46,260 nt of DNA from a virus. The stretch spans positions 1 through 46,260 of IMG/VR virus record IMGVR_UViG_3300020129_000546; one strand, given 5' to 3'. The notes under the pieces are model-generated. The model ran no database searches and was not told where the DNA came from. It saw nothing but the letters and a program-made list of their open reading frames with translations. Below are positions 6,233 through 45,758 of this stretch, in pieces. Position numbers and translations under genes: made by a program. Numbering within the stretch: the stretch's first letter is position 1; every line of letters starts with the position of its first letter.

Positions 6233-7878
6233 AGTCCCTGCGCGAGCTGTACGAGGAGCGCGTCGCCAGCGACGAGTTCAAGCGCCGCGACCGCACGTAC
6301 GACGAGCTGCAGAAGGTGTTCGACTCCGAGGAGGGGCGGCCGCAGGGCGACAGCAGCTACCGCCCCAACCTGCAGGACCCCAGCCAGGGCGGCGATGCGC
6401 AGCGCGACGCCGAGGAGATCGTCGTCAACCAGACCCGTCGCGTGGTCAACCACTTCACCGCGGTCTTCGCGTACCCGCCGCGGGTGCAGGTTCTGCCGCT
6501 GGTGCTGGAGAAGGACCAGGCCAAGTTTGTGGCCGCCGACGCGCTGACCGAGTACAACGACCACGTGCTCAAGAAGTCCAACGTGGCGACGCTGCATCCG
6601 CGCGTTTCGCACTGGCTCTCGCTCCGCGGCGACGCCATGTACGGCGTCGATTGGGGGCTGCTCGACGGCTGGGGATCGATGGGCAATCTGAAGCGCGGCG
6701 TGCGCATCTTCACGTTCGACCCGCGACACTGCTACCCACTCATCTCGAAGTTCGATCTCGGCGCCTGCGACGACATGCTGATCGCTCTCGAAGTCACTCG
6801 CGAGCAGGCCAAGGAGATGTACGACGTCACCGACGAAGAGATGGGCACCATGCACAACCCGCGGGTGTTCTACCACTGGACCTCGAAGTCGTTCAAGGCT
6901 GCGATTGAGGACCACGTCATCGCGGAGGACGATCACAACCTCGGCTTCTGTCCCTTCCGCTGGATCTTCGGCGACCCCTCGGGCAAGTTCGCGCAGGCCG
7001 ACGTTCGCGAAGTGCCGAAGCTCCAGCGTACGTTCAACGAGGGCCTGCTGCTCGCCATCGACGCCATCCGCAAGCAGGTCGATGGTTCGTGGTGGTACAG
7101 CGCCGACGAGACCAAGGAGATCGAGCCCACGCCCGGCCACGTGGACCCGCTCGGCCCCGGTGCCACGGTGGGTCGCTGGGAGATCGCGGCCGACCCGCAG
7201 ATCATCCTCGGGGTGATGCGCTACCTGGAGGATTCCATCCAGGCGACTACCGGCGTCTCGCCGATCTCGATGCAGGGTGCGGCCCCGCAGACCTCGCACG
7301 TCACCGGCGCCGCGGTGCGCCACCAGGTGGAGGCGGCCGAGGCTCGCAGCGAGACCCGCAAGGCGCTGCTGCAGGCGGCGTACTCGCGCCTGGCCGAGTA
7401 CGTGCTGATGGTCACCCGGTTGAAGTTCGCCGGCGAGACCATGCTGTTCCGCTCCGGGCAGAAGCTGAGCGGGTTCAGCGCCGACCAGATCGCGGTGTAC
7501 GTCGAGGCCGACGCCGAGTACGGCGGGTTCCTGGGGCTGCCGCCCGAGCAGCGGGTGCAGCTCGCCATGGCCGGGCTCGGGCACCTGTGGGACGACGTCT
7601 TCGCCAACGACCACATCGTGGACCTCGGCATCTCGGGCACGGTCATGCGGGACCGGATCGCCGCCTACCAGCTCGCGCAGGCGCAGGCGCAGGCCAAGGC
7701 CCAGCAGGCGATGCAGGGCCAGGGCGAAGAGGGAGCGGGAGACGGTGCTCCGGGCGCACCGCAGGCGCCCGGCGGCCCGCCCCCGACCATGGCCCGGCCG
7801 CAGCGTCCGACCGCGCCCAACGGCACCCAGCTCCGCAACTACCTGGCCCGCAAGACCGGCGCCGCCAACGGGCACTGA
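6229..7878 (+). CDS. Portal protein
   Basis: This 549-aa protein is taken as the portal, the dodecameric ring for DNA entry and exit. The evidence is its place right after TerL, its length, and portal-like stretches: a long helical C-terminal half with an AQAQAQAKAQQAMQ coiled region and a Pro/Gly-rich tail. GTG at 6229 is preferred because GGAGG lies eight bases upstream and GTGA overlaps the terminase stop; a TTG seven codons earlier is less likely. Its stop overlaps the next ATG. Confidence 0.82.
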   Translation: MKSLRELYEERVASDEFKRRDRTYDELQKVFDSEEGRPQGDSSYRPNLQDPSQGGDAQRDAEEIVVNQTRRVVNHFTAVFAYPPRVQVLPLVLEKDQAKFVAADALTEYNDHVLKKSNVATLHPRVSHWLSLRGDAMYGVDWGLLDGWGSMGNLKRGVRIFTFDPRHCYPLISKFDLGACDDMLIALEVTREQAKEMYDVTDEEMGTMHNPRVFYHWTSKSFKAAIEDHVIAEDDHNLGFCPFRWIFGDPSGKFAQADVREVPKLQRTFNEGLLLAIDAIRKQVDGSWWYSADETKEIEPTPGHVDPLGPGATVGRWEIAADPQIILGVMRYLEDSIQATTGVSPISMQGAAPQTSHVTGAAVRHQVEAAEARSETRKALLQAAYSRLAEYVLMVTRLKFAGETMLFRSGQKLSGFSADQIAVYVEADAEYGGFLGLPPEQRVQLAMAGLGHLWDDVFANDHIVDLGISGTVMRDRIAAYQLAQAQAQAKAQQAMQGQGEEGAGDGAPGAPQAPGGPPPTMARPQRPTAPNGTQLRNYLARKTGAANGH

Positions 7879-8252
7879 TGGCCGGCACGCAGTTCAGCTC
7901 GGACTCCGCGAAGGCTGGCCCCGGGCGGCCGAGCCGGGGCGCCGGCGATCGACGCATCGACCGCGAGCAGCAGCGTCACGCTGCGCCCAAGGGAGCCGCC
8001 AAGGCCCAGGGTCCGGCCGGCGCTCCTGGCGGCGATGGGCCGCACCTGGGCTTCCCGCAGGCCCAGCAGCAGGCGCCGGAGCCCGGCCAGCAGCCGTCTG
8101 ACCTGCGCCACGTCCAGCTCCTCGCCCAGCACGTCAACATGCAGGGCCTGGGGCGGGAAGGGCTGTTCGGGAACCGGGTCGCGGTGAACGGCGACTACCG
8201 CCAGGTGCTGGGCTCCGGCCAGGTGCCGTTCGACATCTTCGAGGATCTGTAG
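7878..8252 (+). CDS. Hypothetical virion protein, 124 aa
   Basis: The start ATG overlaps the portal stop (TGATG). The N-terminal two thirds is low-complexity (Gly, Pro, Gln, Ala, Arg) and the C-terminal 45 residues are more ordered (LAQHVNMQGLGREGLFGNR). Its place between portal and the large ejection-like protein suggests a head-tail or internal virion part. No family is recognised. Confidence 0.7.
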   Translation: MAGTQFSSDSAKAGPGRPSRGAGDRRIDREQQRHAAPKGAAKAQGPAGAPGGDGPHLGFPQAQQQAPEPGQQPSDLRHVQLLAQHVNMQGLGREGLFGNRVAVNGDYRQVLGSGQVPFDIFEDL

Positions 8253-8253
8253 C

Positions 8254-8370
8254 ATGCGCCGGGTGGAGGCGCTGCCGACGCCGTGGTGGTGGCTGCGGGC
8301 CGCCGGCTGGAACGTACTCGTGTGGGGGCCGGTGTGCCTGGCGTTGATCTTCGTCGGGACGCGGTGCTGA
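8254..8370 (+). CDS. Small single-span membrane protein, 38 aa
   Basis: ATG at 8254 lies just after the previous TAG and its stop lies one base before the next GTG. The peptide has an N-terminal MRRVEALPTPWWWLRAAG and one hydrophobic helix of about 18 residues (about 20-37). Tight packing between two real genes supports it. The role is unknown; it could be inserted in the host membrane during DNA entry. Confidence 0.6.
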   Translation: MRRVEALPTPWWWLRAAGWNVLVWGPVCLALIFVGTRC

Positions 8371-8371
8371 G

Positions 8372-11300
8372 GTGGCCGTCAACAACCCGCTGAGCACGAT
8401 CCTGCCGGCGGCTCAGCAGCCGAGCGTCGGCTCCTCCCCGGGCGCCGGCCAGGCGCCGGGCTTCGGTCCCGCGCAGCAGCAGTTCACGCTCCAGAACCTC
8501 GGCCAGCAGCCGCAGGGCGAGCAGCAGCCGGCGCTCGCGCCGTTGCCCCAGCTCGTGCCCTACGTCGGCATGCGGCCGTACTACGCTGCGCTCGGCCAGC
8601 AGCCGCAGGCGGTCATGCCCCAGGTCTCGGACCCCACCCTGCAGGCCATCCAGCAGAAGCTCAGCGCCTTGCAGGCGACCACGCCGCTCCTCCAGGGCGC
8701 GCAGCCGCCGCACCCCAGCTCGGTACTGGCCAAGCAGCAGGCGCCGATGAGCCCGCTCCAGATCGTGGGGGCGGCCGGGCAGCAGCTCTGGCAGCAGGAG
8801 GTGGTCAACCCTGTCCAGGACTACATCAAGACCTGGCAGACCAACCCCGGCCAGGCGCTGGCCGAGACCGCGCTCGGGATCGGCACGATCGCCGCCGTGG
8901 TCGGCCTGGAGGCGGTCACCGGCGGCGCCGCGACCCCGGTCATCTTCGCTGCCTTCGGCGCCATGGCCGCGCCTGCGCTGGTCAAGAGCTGGGCGCAGGA
9001 GGTGACCGACCCCACGGACGGCCACCTGGTACAGGCGCTGGTATCGACCGGCAGCGCCGTGCTCTCGGTCGGCTCGCCGGTGCGCGCGTTCAAGGGCATC
9101 CAGAGCGCCCGTGCGCTGCTGAACAACGCCATCGTGGCGCGCAAGATGGTCGTGGACGCGGATGCCGCGGCGGGCCTGATCCTCGGCGGCCGGTCGGCGA
9201 CGTGGGCCATCCGCACCGGGGTCCCGCTGGAGAAGCAGATCGAGGTGCTGAGCCCCGATCCCGAGGAGGCGCTGCGCCAGTTTCAGGCCCGGTCGGTCAA
9301 CGTCGAGGAGGGCACGGCCGCCGCGTACATGGCGGCGTCGCGCAGCCAGCAGGCCCTGACCAAGCGTCTGCAGACGGCTCGCGACGCCGGCGACCTGGAC
9401 GCGGTCAAGAACCTCCTCCAGGAGATCCGCGGACACGCCAAGGAGACCCTGGCACCGGCTACCCTGGCAGCGGCGTACGACCACCTGTTCATCCCCTCGA
9501 CGCCGTACACGCACGTGCCGCTGTCCCCCCTGGAGGGGGTGTCGCCCGATCTGCACGACGCCCTGAATGAGCACGAGGGGGCGATCCGCGGGCTGCTGCG
9601 CGAGCTGCACAGCGGCAACGCGCTCCAGGGCCTGCACGAGACGGCCACCCGCATCGAGTCGGTGATGGAGCAGGGCGCACTCGACCGCGCCGCCGGCACC
9701 GCCTGGGACATGGGCAATCGGGTCCTGTCGCGTATCGAGGAGATGGCTCGGGCGGCCGGGCTCAGCGGCCTCAATGACGAGCGGATCGAGCCCATCCTGC
9801 AGGCGCTGGAGGAGCCCGAGAAGTGGCAGGCCCTGCTCGATGCCGAGCCCGAGCAGGCGGCGTTCGCGCAGCGGCTCCGCAACATCTCGAACATGCTCAC
9901 CGCCGGCGAGCTGAAGCACGGCACCGTGGCGCTGCCGCTGCTCGGCCGGGTGGCTCACTACGTGCGCGGCACGACCGGCGACCAGCAGGCCGAGCCGATC
10001 GAGATGTTCAGCTCCTGGTGGAAGAACCCGACCGGTTCGCGCTCGCGGTACTGGCGTGTCGCCGTGGACGACGAGAGCGGAGCGGTGACATTCCTGCCTC
10101 GTACGCGGGCCGGCATCATCGAGAAGTTCAAGAAGCAGACCGAGTTCTACGAGGCGACGCACGAGCACCGCCAGATGTACATCGCGAATCGGGCCGCGAT
10201 CAACGCCGCTCGCCGCCGCTTCGGCCAGCTCGAAGGCAAGCGCGGACTCGGCCACGACGATCCCAAGGTTGTCGCCGCGGCGCGGGCCAAGATCGATCAG
10301 ATGATGCTCGAAGCCCACAGCTCGATGGGTAGGCTCGCGCCCGAGCTGATCGGCATGGAGTACAAGCAGCTTCAGAAGCTGCGGCGCGCGGCCCCGGCCA
10401 CCCAGGAGCTGGTGACCGGCGGCGAGGCTGTACGGCAGATGCTGGCCCGCCACATGCACCGGATGCACATGGCGGTGATCGGCGACGGCCTGCGCTCGCA
10501 TGCCAACCTGAACATGCAGAAGATGCGGGACATCTTCGGCGAGACGCCGATGAAGACCTGGGGGGCGGCGATGGAGCTGCCTTCGTTCAAGAGCAAGCAT
10601 GAACTCCCGGACATCCTGGAGGACACGGTCTTCCTGGGCCAGGGCAAGAACGCCGGCTCGGTAGAGGATAACGCTCGGCGCCTGGGCTACTTCCTGGCGC
10701 ACCCCGCGGTCGGTCGCCCCGGCGACCTGCACCATCGGCCGGCGCTGTACGCACGCGGTGACCTGGCCAACAAGATCAAGCAGGCGGAAGCCGATACATC
10801 GGCGGCGGGCCTGCAGAACGGCATCCTGGATGCCCTGTACAACATCAGCGGAACGAGCAAGCGGTTCGTCATGTACAACCCGCTGTTCCACCGCATGAAC
10901 ACAGCGGGCCGGGCCTTCAGCTTTTTGCTGAGTGATCCGGCCATGGCCCAGTCGGCGTTCAAGGCCGTGGGCGAACTCAAGAAGGACTCGGAGGCGTACT
11001 ACGCACTGCTGGAGGAAGCCGGTCAGGCCGGCATGGTCCATGCCAACCAGTGGAACGTCTCGCACCATCTGCAGCTCCTGCAGCGTGAGGAGGATGGCCA
11101 GCACCACTTCCTGGGCGCCATCCGGAACTTCGGGAGGGCCATCAACGACTGGCACTCCGAGCACCTGGAGCGCGGGCTCTGGAACAGCGTGGACAACACG
11201 CAGCTCGCGGCCTACATGTACATGAAGGCGAGGATGGCCGGTAAGGGCATCCATGGACCAGACGCCCGACGTGCTGCGGCGCAGTACGCGAACATGCTGG

Positions 11301-38528: not shown

Positions 38529-38659
38529 CAGAACGGCCTCCTTCCCGACCACGCCTGGCGCCAGGTCGGCTTCCAGACCCGGCCATCGGTGTAGGTCAGC
38601 GTCATGTTGAGCGCGCGAAGCAGCAGCCGGAGCCACCGCGGGGCGGACTCCCAGGTCAT
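38528..38659 (-). CDS. Small Trp/Arg-rich protein, 43 aa
   Basis: GGAGGTGCG precedes ATG 38659, which overlaps the helicase stop, and its TGA overlaps the next ATG. The peptide (MTWESAPRWLRLLLRALNMT then more Trp/Arg) is amphipathic. It lies directly behind the helicase. No family is recognised. Confidence 0.55.
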   Translation of the reverse strand: MTWESAPRWLRLLLRALNMTLTYTDGRVWKPTWRQAWSGRRPF

Positions 38660-40083
38660 CGCACCTCCTCCAGGAACCTTCCGCCGGCCTCGCGGCCGAC
38701 GTCGCGGCCAGCAGTATAGAACCTTTCGATGTCGTCGCCCCGGTGCAGTCGGTGCCGCCAGATCGTGGCGTCCACGCTGCCCCGGATGAGCAGGTAGGCG
38801 TGGCGCAGGGTCTTGGCCTTCTGATTCGGCCCGCGGCCCCGAGCCTCGGCCTGGTAGTGGAGCGCGGCGTCGCGCCGGGGCTCCCCGTACAGGAACCAGC
38901 GGGCGGCCGAGAGATCGATGCCCAAGCCCGCCGACTGGAGGTTGCCGACCAGCAGCGGGAGCTTGCCGGCGGCGAAGTCGTGGCGAATCTGGTCGCGCTC
39001 GCGGACGCTGGTATCGCCGGTGATGACCGGGCAGTTCAGCACCCTGGCCAGGCCCTCGGTGTAGGCGCGGTGCCAGCCGAAGATGACCACCGGCTCGTGG
39101 TGCTCGACCAGCGGACGGTCGGGCCGCTCGACGTACGCCAGCTCACCAGCGCGGAGCTGGGCCAGGTACGCCTGCGTCAGCCTGATCTTGGCCGGCACCA
39201 GGGCCTGCTGCTCGGCGTCCAGGATGCTGTCGGGGAGGTCGTCGTCCGGCCATGCGGCGTCGCCCTCGCCCACCCACACCGGGAAGCGGTCGGGCAGCGC
39301 GATGGCGCGGACGTCCTCCTCGCGCAGGGCGAGCACGTTGGGCAGCTTCGCCCACAGCTCGCCCTCGTTCTTGATGCCGGTGTACGAGAGCCCGGTCTGC
39401 GCGAACGGGTTGGGCACGGCGTGGCAGTACCGGCAGGCGAAGCAGCGACCGCAGGCCGCGTTCTTGCGGTCCTTGGCCCAGGGCGCCTTGAAGCACGCCT
39501 TCTTCATGAAGAAGAACGGGTTGTTGGTGCTGCCGAAGGGTCGAAGCTGCCAGTAGATGTCCAGCGCGCTGTTCACGTACCAGGTTCCAGACAGCTCCCA
39601 CACTCGATCGGTGCCCTTGGCCAGCGCGTCGAAGGCGATGTACCGCTGGGTCTGCCCGGTGGCGCAGCGCAGGTAGACGTGGCTCTCGTCGGCCACCAGG
39701 TTGAACTGCTCGACCTCCAGGTGCTCCTGGAACCAGCCCAGCCAGTAGGGCAGGATCTCGGGGTTGATGAGGTACACCCGGGGCAGCCAGTCGGGCCAGC
39801 CGCTGGGGTCCGGCACCAGCCGTCGCGTGGACTCCTTGGTGCCGTAGCAGCGGACGAAGCGGAGGCCGAGGCTCATGGCCTCGGCCTCCTCCGGCCACAC
39901 ACCGAGCGCGGTGCTGGGGCCGACCACGACCAGGTCGCGGGCGCGGCCCGCGTTGACCTGGTTGTTGTGGGCGTGGAGCGTGGTCCGGGTCTTGCCCGTC
40001 CGCATCTCCCAGTTCAGGACGCCGCTGGTCCGCTCCAGCATCTCGGCGCCCCGGGGCTGCCACGGGAACAGCGTGTACGCCAC
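38656..40083 (-). CDS. SNF2/SF2-family DNA helicase with Cys cluster, 475 aa
   Basis: GTG 40083 overlaps the previous TAG. SF2 motifs are clear: motif I EMRTGKT (26-32), motif II ADESH (131-135), LSGTW (165-169, motif III) and the C-terminal half with ITGDTSVRERDQ, SAGLGIDLSAA and QAEARGRG. Between them is CGRCFACRYC (211-220) with Cys197 nearby, an unusual inserted metal cluster. It probably translocates on DNA in replication or recombination. It is coupled to the TOPRIM protein, suggesting a shared pathway. Confidence 0.85.
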   Translation of the reverse strand: MAYTLFPWQPRGAEMLERTSGVLNWEMRTGKTRTTLHAHNNQVNAGRARDLVVVGPSTALGVWPEEAEAMSLGLRFVRCYGTKESTRRLVPDPSGWPDWLPRVYLINPEILPYWLGWFQEHLEVEQFNLVADESHVYLRCATGQTQRYIAFDALAKGTDRVWELSGTWYVNSALDIYWQLRPFGSTNNPFFFMKKACFKAPWAKDRKNAACGRCFACRYCHAVPNPFAQTGLSYTGIKNEGELWAKLPNVLALREEDVRAIALPDRFPVWVGEGDAAWPDDDLPDSILDAEQQALVPAKIRLTQAYLAQLRAGELAYVERPDRPLVEHHEPVVIFGWHRAYTEGLARVLNCPVITGDTSVRERDQIRHDFAAGKLPLLVGNLQSAGLGIDLSAARWFLYGEPRRDAALHYQAEARGRGPNQKAKTLRHAYLLIRGSVDATIWRHRLHRGDDIERFYTAGRDVGREAGGRFLEEVR

Positions 40084-41021
40084 TACTCGTCGCCGTGGCT
40101 GTCGCGCAGGTACTCGGCGACGTCGAACCAGTTGTCGGCGGCCAGGGTCAGCAGTCGCTTCGCCTTGGCCTCCTCCTCCTGCGCCGCCTGCATCAGGTCG
40201 CTGTCCATCACGCCCTCGATGGATGACCGTACCAGATCGGCCAGCACCTGGGGCTCCAGCGCGTCCAGCTCCCAGCTCTCGTCGCCATACTGGGCCTGGT
40301 AGCCCTCGAACCGGCTGTCGGTGATCTTGGCCGGGTTGGGCGGCGGCCCGTACTGCTGGACCTGGTCCATGGTCAGCGCCACCCGCTCGACGCGGAAGCG
40401 GGAGATGTAGGCGCCGGCATGGTGGCCGATGAACGTGTACAGCCGGTCGGTGATGTCGCGCGTCATGTCCAGGCCGGACGGGTCGTGATCGCCGAAGTGG
40501 AAGATCACCACCCGCTTGCCGTCGTGGATCTTGCGCTGGAGCCGCATGCCGGCCATCCAGACCTCGCTGGCGCTGGCGTAGCCCCGACAGGAGAACAGGG
40601 GCACATCCAGCTCGTTGCAGACGCCCTCGAACACGCCCACGAGCGCGTCCTTCTCGATCCAGACCTCGGGGTGGATGGGCTGGTCCCGCCACCACGCCTC
40701 GTGGTACGAGTTGGCCGCCGAGTGGATGATGCTCTCGGGGTCCGTCCACGACGACAGCGAGCGCAGGAACCGGGTCCGGTCCTCGATCGCGGTCCAGGAG
40801 ACGCGCCCGGCCATCCGTGCGTCGTTGATGAGGTTGCCCAGGCTCTTGTACGACTGGAGCGTGTTGGGGATCAGCCCCCTGGCCACGTGCTGGTAGTAGA
40901 GCTGCCTCAGCGTCAGGCTGAAGCCCTGGGCCTGGTACTCGGCGATGATGTCGTTCGCCTGTACGATCTTGGCCTCGGACGCCCGTGAGAACTGCTTATG
41001 CTCATAGGCGATCAACGTCAA
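40083..41021 (-). CDS. Spo11/TopoVI-A-like TOPRIM protein, 312 aa
   Basis: TTG 41021 is placed by the GGAGGTTCTACG ribosome site at the end of RNA element copy C. The TOPRIM core has Glu123 (VWIEKDAL) and Asp178/Asp180 (FGDHDPSGLDM). Upstream LTLRQLYYQHV resembles the TSRxxYY catalytic Tyr motif of Spo11/TopoVI-A, with Tyr43 as candidate nucleophile. It may cut or relax DNA with the SNF2 helicase, whose gene it overlaps by one base. No TopoVI-B subunit is seen. The fold assignment is by motif only; JetD-like proteins are an alternative. Confidence 0.65.
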   Translation of the reverse strand: MTLIAYEHKQFSRASEAKIVQANDIIAEYQAQGFSLTLRQLYYQHVARGLIPNTLQSYKSLGNLINDARMAGRVSWTAIEDRTRFLRSLSSWTDPESIIHSAANSYHEAWWRDQPIHPEVWIEKDALVGVFEGVCNELDVPLFSCRGYASASEVWMAGMRLQRKIHDGKRVVIFHFGDHDPSGLDMTRDITDRLYTFIGHHAGAYISRFRVERVALTMDQVQQYGPPPNPAKITDSRFEGYQAQYGDESWELDALEPQVLADLVRSSIEGVMDSDLMQAAQEEEAKAKRLLTLAADNWFDVAEYLRDSHGDE

Positions 41022-41101
41022 CGTAGAACCTCCTTGTTGTATGGCCGGCGTTGGGACCGGCCGCGGTAGTTACACCGGGCCGCTGCCCGGTGCCCTCCTA
41101 C
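41022..41101 (-). ncRNA. Conserved intergenic RNA element, copy C
   Basis: Minus strand: P1 is GTAG/CTAC here instead of CGCG/CGCG, loop GAGG/AA, P2 CACCGGGC/GCCCGGTG with loop AGCG, P3 GGCCGG/CCGGCC with loop TCCCAACG, then GGAGGTTCTACG and the TTG at 41021. The exchange of all P1 pairs is strong evidence for a real helix. Confidence 0.8.
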
Positions 41102-44600: not shown

Positions 44601-44679
44601 GTAGAACCTCCTGTCATGTGGTGTACGGCCTTGGGACCGTACTGGGTAGTTACACCGGGTTGCCCCGGTGCCCTCCTAC
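44601..44679 (-). ncRNA. Conserved intergenic RNA element, copy F
   Basis: Minus strand: P1 GTAG/CTAC (as in copy C), loop GAGG/AA, P2 CACCGGG/CCCGGTG with GCAA tetraloop, P3 GTACGG/CCGTAC with loop TCCCAAG, then AGGAGGTTCTAC and GTG 44600. Confidence 0.8.
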
Positions 44680-45758
44680 TAGAACGTGAACGAGAGCAGC
44701 TTGCCCGCCGCCTGGTCCAGCTCCGTGCGCTTGTCCGCGTGCGGGGTGGTCTGCGAGAAGCGGGTGATGCCCTGGGCCATACCCCACACGGTGTTGGGGT
44801 TGCCGTCCTGGGACGGCACGACGGCCGCGTACGACGCCTCCAGCGCCTTGCGCGAGAGCCCCAGGGTCCGGATGCCGAACAGCTTGTCGAGCACGCCCTC
44901 CTTGGTGTCGGCGATGGTGGTCGTCTGCGCCTTCTCGATCATCGCCTGGTCGTCGCTGGCGCTGGCGTTCGCGTACTGCCGGAGCGCGTAGCTCCAGCGG
45001 TGCATCCGGCCGCGCACGTTGCCCACGTGCCGGAGCGACAGGTCCACGACGTTGCGGGCGCCCCAAATGATGTGGTTCCCGCACATCTCGCGGTACAGGA
45101 ACCGGGTGAGCTTGAGGCTCCCGGCGCCGACCTCGGAGTTCTCCACGATGACACCGCGGAACAGCGCGCCGTCCTGGCCGGGCTCGGCGATGGCCAGGTC
45201 CGACCGAGCCAGGAACACGAACATGTCGTGGTCGCTGGCGTAGAGCGGCAGGCTGTCGTCCAGGACTCGGATGGTGGGACGCGCCGGAGCCCAACCCTGG
45301 GCCTCCAGCTCCAGCAGCCGCTCGGCGACCTCGTGGTTCCAGATCCGCGCGTACTTGTCCGTGGTCAGCGACCGGCACACGGTGCCGCCGTTGACGTGGA
45401 ACAGCAGGCGCGCGGTGTTGCTGGCGCGTCCGCCCGCGTCCTGGCGCTGGGCCAGGCCGTGGTTGAGCAGGTCGGCTGCCAGTGTCGCGGGAAGCCCCCG
45501 CAGGTACTCCGCGGGAGCGCCCACGCGGTTGGCGAGCTGACCGAACGCCCAGTGCGTGAGCATGGCGGGGTTGCCGGCCCTGCCGACCACGGCCACGTCG
45601 TTGGCGACGGGCTGGGCCTTCAGGTCGGACCACGCCACCTCGCGCTCGGTCGAGGTCTTGGCGTACGCGTGGGTGGCCTCGTACAGCTCGCGGAGCGACT
45701 TGAACCGCTCGTCCGCCGGCCGGGTCGCCCACTGGTGATGCGCCTTGAACAGCTCCAT
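44679..45758 (-). CDS. DUF932-family phage/plasmid protein, 359 aa
   Basis: ATG 45758 follows GGAGGTTCTGTC. The protein matches the DUF932 pattern (QLANRVGAPAEYLRGLPATL; LLFHVNGGTVCRSLTTDKY; IVENSEVGAGSLKLTRFLYR; YREMCGNHIIWGA; YAAVVPSQDGNPNTVWGMAQ). The family is common on phages and plasmids; its exact function is unknown, with DNA or replication roles suggested. It sits between RNA elements G and F and is the largest gene of the left operon, so it may be a key early protein. Confidence 0.78.
   Translation of the reverse strand: MELFKAHHQWATRPADERFKSLRELYEATHAYAKTSTEREVAWSDLKAQPVANDVAVVGRAGNPAMLTHWAFGQLANRVGAPAEYLRGLPATLAADLLNHGLAQRQDAGGRASNTARLLFHVNGGTVCRSLTTDKYARIWNHEVAERLLELEAQGWAPARPTIRVLDDSLPLYASDHDMFVFLARSDLAIAEPGQDGALFRGVIVENSEVGAGSLKLTRFLYREMCGNHIIWGARNVVDLSLRHVGNVRGRMHRWSYALRQYANASASDDQAMIEKAQTTTIADTKEGVLDKLFGIRTLGLSRKALEASYAAVVPSQDGNPNTVWGMAQGITRFSQTTPHADKRTELDQAAGKLLSFTF

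Follow-up and report, generated by a model that had tools for sequence, protein, structure and literature searches.

Topo VI is an A2B2 enzyme with a GHKL B subunit, which is required for strand passage, and Spo11 makes breaks without strand passage. The active site of Topo VI, as set out in the portion of PMC13040014 drawn on here, comprises Tyr106, Glu202, Asp254, Asp256 and Glu342, with a clasp between Arg102 and Glu342; it is split over two subunits, in such a way that the tyrosine of one acts on the Toprim of its partner, and before cleavage this tyrosine rests about 10 Å away. JetD/MksG, the nuclease of Wadjet, is described in an excerpt from PMC10123090 as having no catalytic tyrosine in its 5Y-CAP domain. 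Closest to the locus considered here are the Mini-A proteins, named by Takahashi et al. (2020; NAR Genom Bioinform lqz021), whose work is known to us through four other papers, each represented here by extracts: in PMC7614492, Mini-A proteins are truncated Top6A homologues of archaeoviruses and bacteriophages, the legend to its Fig. 4 giving 'Pseudomonas phage NP1 Mini-A' as the exemplar, and similar descriptions are found in PMC8185306 (where they are called uncharacterised in archaea), PMC11302465 and PMC8084294. No form of the Spo11/Topo VI-A cutting module simpler than Mini-A is known. Although phages and bacterial genomes commonly encode it, its function is called unknown in the extracts of these reviews (PMC8084294). 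A literature search over titles and the openings of abstracts found no experimental or biochemical work on Mini-A, which may nevertheless exist. The question worth asking is what Mini-A does at all.

The DNA analysed (the window) is the whole of a virus record (G000), 46,260 bases long. Genes for a terminase, a portal-like protein, a major head protein and a tape-measure-like protein are encoded in it, and the source is therefore a tailed phage; no phage near-identical to positions 22000-46260 was present in the annotated phage collection. At 40083-41021 lies a gene for a Topo VI-A/Spo11-like protein of 312 amino acids, which had been picked out at these coordinates in an earlier note made from the raw sequence. 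It is read on the minus strand, from 41021 down to 40083, and begins with a TTG codon preceded, at a distance of seven bases, by a ribosome-binding site (AAGGAGG, 41029-41035, minus strand). The protein matches the phrog_6247 profile ('DNA topoisomerase') with an E-value of 4e-110, residues 4-307 aligning with positions 4-301 of 303, and its homologue in Pseudomonas phage NP1 (H32, locus L005, annotated 'DNA topoisomerase' and the only matching place in the NP1 record by tblastn) is 48.5% identical over 86% of the query (E 5e-75). Since the NP1 protein is the very one given as the exemplar of Mini-A, we file the window protein under that name, and its membership of the family is in our judgement almost certain. 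Like other Mini-A proteins, it is a truncated homologue of Topo VI-A encoded by a virus, with a winged helix carrying an RxxxY tyrosine, a Toprim domain carrying a glutamate and a DxD motif, and no B subunit fused or adjoining. Nothing was found that separates it from a family that has been in print since 2020; it differs from other members in having a helicase gene next door, and this is confined to a small lineage around the window.

Such genes are widespread. Searches with tblastn found relatives in 77 of 50,697 phage records, every one below 60% identity, and pattern scans showed that at least 512 stretches of viral contigs encode them, which takes the observation far beyond chance; similar scans of bacterial and archaeal genome contigs gave 192 relatives, of which 80 were kept. 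Three relatives (L108, L128 and L156) lie on contigs of metagenome-assembled genomes binned as archaea. The Toprim family of Topo VI-A had no match in these three genomes, which would be odd for archaea and could reflect incomplete or mixed bins.

The case for a Topo VI-A-like fold rests chiefly on predicted structure and on profiles. When the AlphaFold model of the whole protein (built from 17 sequences; pLDDT 87.3) was realigned by VIA-align against 1000 PDB chains, Topo VI-A (1d3y) came out on top (Z 11.2, rmsd 2.7, 137 residues aligned, covering model residues 115-270), and among the best 12 matches were seven more Topo VI-A or Spo11 chains (including Spo11 8uru at Z 9.3 and 8urq at Z 9.2) and two nucleases of the JetD/MksG type (7til and 8b7f, both Z 10.2). 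This places the Toprim domain at residues 115-272 (40206-40679, minus strand). The winged helix, modelled alone from residues 1-112 (pLDDT 86.2) and assigned to residues 12-84 (a domain resembling 5Y-CAP; 40770-40988, minus strand), also gave 1d3y as its best match (Z 7.9, rmsd 2.3, 69 aligned), a score that supports the likeness to Topo VI-A without proving it, as it falls inside the tool's own range common for unrelated folds and the second match, to an unrelated fold, reached 6.8. Model residues 12-83 lie on residues 72-143 of 1d3y, an equal span, so that if the alignment is ungapped Tyr43 falls on residue 103, which we take to be the catalytic tyrosine of that protein (presumably as in Nichols et al., 1999). 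Thus the AlphaFold comparison with Topo VI-A, Spo11 and JetD that the earlier note had called for put Topo VI-A 1d3y first with both models. Foldseek alone was less decisive (best E 5e-3, to Topo VI-A, with a TM of 0.32), and a fold search of BFVD gave one match below 1e-3, to an unnamed protein of 152 residues.

Sequence methods alone are weak here, and structure together with profiles settles the likeness better. Neither the protein nor its profile found any match in a sequence search of the PDB up to E 10; Pfam TP6A_N scored 12.7 bits (E 0.11) against a curated cut-off of 26, and the Toprim family PF21180 matched two of 17 members, at best with E 0.014, the window protein not being one of them, so neither Topo VI family was recognised in it above its curated cut-off. 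No Topo VI-A was found with PF21180 in seven host genomes that carry Mini-A, and a comparison set of eight archaeal Topo VI-A proteins was therefore taken from the phylum of one of these hosts; its profile matches Topo VI-A 2q2e with E 8e-192. Profile-profile alignment of Mini-A with this set by hhalign gave E 0.0024 (reversed control 0.69), and with a Mini-A alignment of 179 rows E 9.3e-4 (reversed control 0.43), the associated probabilities being low (12-22%); in these alignments the LYY, Glu and DxD columns of Mini-A lie on those of Topo VI-A. The window protein is thus like the A subunit of Topo VI (1d3y, 2q2e, 2zbk, 9o0g) in its two domains and in the order of its active-site motifs, and unlike it in being shorter, in lacking a Topo VI-B partner and in showing sequence likeness at the profile level only.

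The residues that the earlier note had singled out, Tyr43 within LTLRQLYYQ, Glu123 and the pair Asp178/Asp180, are all at the positions it gave. Tyr43, the predicted catalytic residue, closes the motif RQLYY (Arg39 to Tyr43; 40893-40907), a placing supported by conservation, by the alignment with 1d3y and by hhalign; the spacing of Arg39 and Tyr43 equals that of Arg102 and Tyr106 in Topo VI (RELYY). The acidic residue Glu123 of the Toprim (40653-40655) falls on the Toprim glutamate of Topo VI-A by hhalign, and Asp178-His179-Asp180 (40482-40490) on its DGD; all of these are on the minus strand, as is Glu251 (40269-40271) in the motif SWELDAL. Glu251 resembles Glu342 of Topo VI (KKAEQQA) in that both sit in an ExxA motif that precedes the end of the domain, and is therefore a candidate for the fourth acidic residue and clasp partner, a pairing that was not recovered by hhalign. 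Arg39, Tyr43, Glu123, Asp178, Asp180 and Glu251 are invariant in all 179 sequences, although for Arg39, Tyr43 and Glu123 this is partly built in, as many of the loci were gathered by patterns holding those three residues; in the 26 sequences gathered without such patterns all six residues are present in every case. Tyr42, by comparison, is Phe in 11 of the 179. Fold, active-site positions and family therefore agree in the reading of the gene as Spo11/Topo VI-A-like, which had been recognised accurately from the raw sequence. It had been suggested at that stage that a model with Tyr43 far from the Toprim site would count against this reading, but since the tyrosine of Topo VI acts in trans and lies some 10 Å off, a genuine Topo VI would fail such a test. 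No catalytic position has been lost from the window copy, the candidate Arg39/Glu251 clasp (of the kind recently described in Topo VI) included, and it therefore offers a fair test case for whether such a cutting module works without any B subunit.

The absence of a GHKL subunit from the window, also remarked on at the outset, was borne out with PF02518 and PF13589, neither of which scored above its threshold in any of the 50 records scanned, the window included. To lack a GHKL partner is usual for Mini-A proteins and no special trait of this phage. Nor did another common neighbour emerge: when open reading frames of at least 80 amino acids within 5 kb of Mini-A were clustered across 88 loci (less than 80% identical), no family occurred in more than six of them. 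In 12 annotated phages (a 13th record, which carries no annotation, was left out) the neighbours of Mini-A include genes for ThyX, Sak4, a Cas4 exonuclease, a DNA polymerase and endonuclease V, as well as unnamed genes, and by their annotation nine of the 12 have DNA-metabolism genes within 5 kb of it.

We infer that Mini-A may be a stand-alone Spo11/Topo VI-A-like cutter that has no GHKL ATPase and acts as a homodimer, with Tyr43 cleaving in trans, in replication or recombination; taken as a whole, and with its family, domains, residue conservation and gene context being what was observed and its dimer, cleavage and role what was deduced, this proposal seems to us moderately probable. Two copies would pair through their Toprim domains and bind bent duplex DNA; Tyr43 of one winged helix, together with the metal site of the other copy (Glu123, Asp178, Asp180 and probably Glu251), would break each strand, and the protein would stay covalently bound to the 5' end after cleavage. 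It would most likely serve as a Spo11-like maker of breaks in the DNA replication and recombination programme of the phage, with the adjoining helicase gene presumably sharing its operon but otherwise independent of it. We favour a Spo11-like activity over strand passage because the ATPase that would move a second duplex is missing; Spo11 itself, which the protein resembles in fold (8uru, 8urq), differs in having B-like partners, none of which was found for the window protein.

How do other readings of the protein fare? A true type IIB topoisomerase, which would reseal its cuts and relax or unlink phage DNA alone, either without ATP or with an ATPase borrowed from the host, would fit the retention of the Topo VI-A active-site positions, the naming of many homologues in RefSeq as 'DNA topoisomerase' and, according to an extract of PMC7614492, the precedent of one topo VIII (from Microscilla marina) that relaxed DNA without ATP; we nevertheless think it unlikely, given the dependence of Topo VI on its B subunit for strand passage and the failure of any GHKL partner to rise above cut-off in the 50 records. 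Hydrolysis of DNA by a metal-dependent nuclease like JetD, with no tyrosine link, had been offered as another option from the start, and the Toprim domain does resemble those of JetD and MksG, with JetD 7til fourth in the Toprim match and a weak PADLOC match to JetD (E 0.037) over residues 129-193. We disfavour it, and rate it as very unlikely, because the 5Y-CAP tyrosine that is absent from JetD/MksG (PMC10123090, in the excerpt cited above) is invariant throughout the Mini-A set, which also sets the window protein apart from the JetD type of N-terminal domain; moreover, Pfam gave no JetD match. Some phage annotators have labelled homologues (H20 and H24) 'DNA binding protein', and a purely DNA-binding protein that cuts nothing, with for example a structural or regulatory function, could be imagined, though the strict invariance of the tyrosine and of all the acidic residues would be hard to explain without catalysis, and we regard this as highly improbable.

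It had also been proposed that the next gene, as an SNF2 helicase, could partner Mini-A in a new kind of DNA-cutting or relaxing pair; the helicase would then stand in as the missing motor. The gene in question (38656-40083, minus strand; 475 amino acids) does overlap Mini-A by one base, the first G of its GTG start being the last base of the Mini-A TAG, and it does encode an SF2 helicase, as judged by Pfam Helicase_C (E 1.4e-5) and phrog_62 ('DNA helicase', E 1.7e-48); the SNF2 label is only plausible, since Pfam SNF2_N gave no match to it at E up to 1. By eye, the two motor domains of the helicase are separated by an insert, CGRCFACRYC (39390-39470, minus strand), that resembles a zinc-binding loop. 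For a two-part machine one may cite the retention of both genes in all three genomes of the window lineage and their overlap, which is of four bases in L008. Against it, an SF2 helicase was found by phrog_62 (50 other records) or PF00271 (49 of these) in 22 of the 50, and within 1 kb of Mini-A in only three, two of these being L008 and L009, near kin of the window (Mini-A 86-87% identical); in L009 (87%) a gene of 119 amino acids (6942-7301), with short overlaps to both, splits Mini-A from the helicase, and in the third, L023, a different SF2 helicase lies 0.4 kb downstream, beyond a gene that looks HNH-like by eye. Among the 20 non-kin records with a helicase, one, three and four have it within 1, 3 and 5 kb, as against 1.6, 3.0 and 4.2 for random placement (assuming one helicase per record), and none of the genes directly beside Mini-A in the 12 annotated phages carries a helicase annotation. 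With proximity in non-kin at the level of chance, a conserved helicase partner was rejected. The adjacency is peculiar to the small window lineage, the helicase appears to be a chance neighbour, and the coupling does not hold; we consider the two-part machine extremely unlikely. An open reading frame that looks SNF2-like by eye ends 268 bases upstream of Mini-A in L089, a short contig outside the 50 records, and may be counted with L023 on its side. A related idea is that, within the window lineage, a co-translated SNF2-like translocase has replaced the missing GHKL motor and would drive DNA bending or tracking, Mini-A cutting or passing strands only where the translocase stalls, to which we give scarcely any credence.

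Minor observations concern two other kinds of neighbour of the Mini-A gene. About 0.8 kb downstream of Mini-A in L044 is a 480-amino-acid open reading frame (7785-9224) with a weak HATPase_c match (E 8e-4); by eye it has GHKL-like boxes and, near its C-terminus, a metallopeptidase-like motif, HEFTHH. It has no relatives in the other 49 records, and as it is missing from the window and not common to other records, it was rejected as a hidden GHKL partner. A second open reading frame of L044, from 10106 onward, had no Pfam match and by eye contains GQFGSGNKHAI and ALREFVSNAID, which resemble GHKL boxes in swapped order. Genes for DUF932 occur in 14 of the 50 records, and in eight of the 11 non-kin records they share the strand of Mini-A and lie upstream within 8.5 kb (a cut-off set after the distances had been seen), compared with about 0.9 to 1.7 for random placement, an excess that early-gene modules could explain. 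The window's own DUF932 gene (44679-45758) shares the minus strand with Mini-A and lies 3.7 kb upstream of it.
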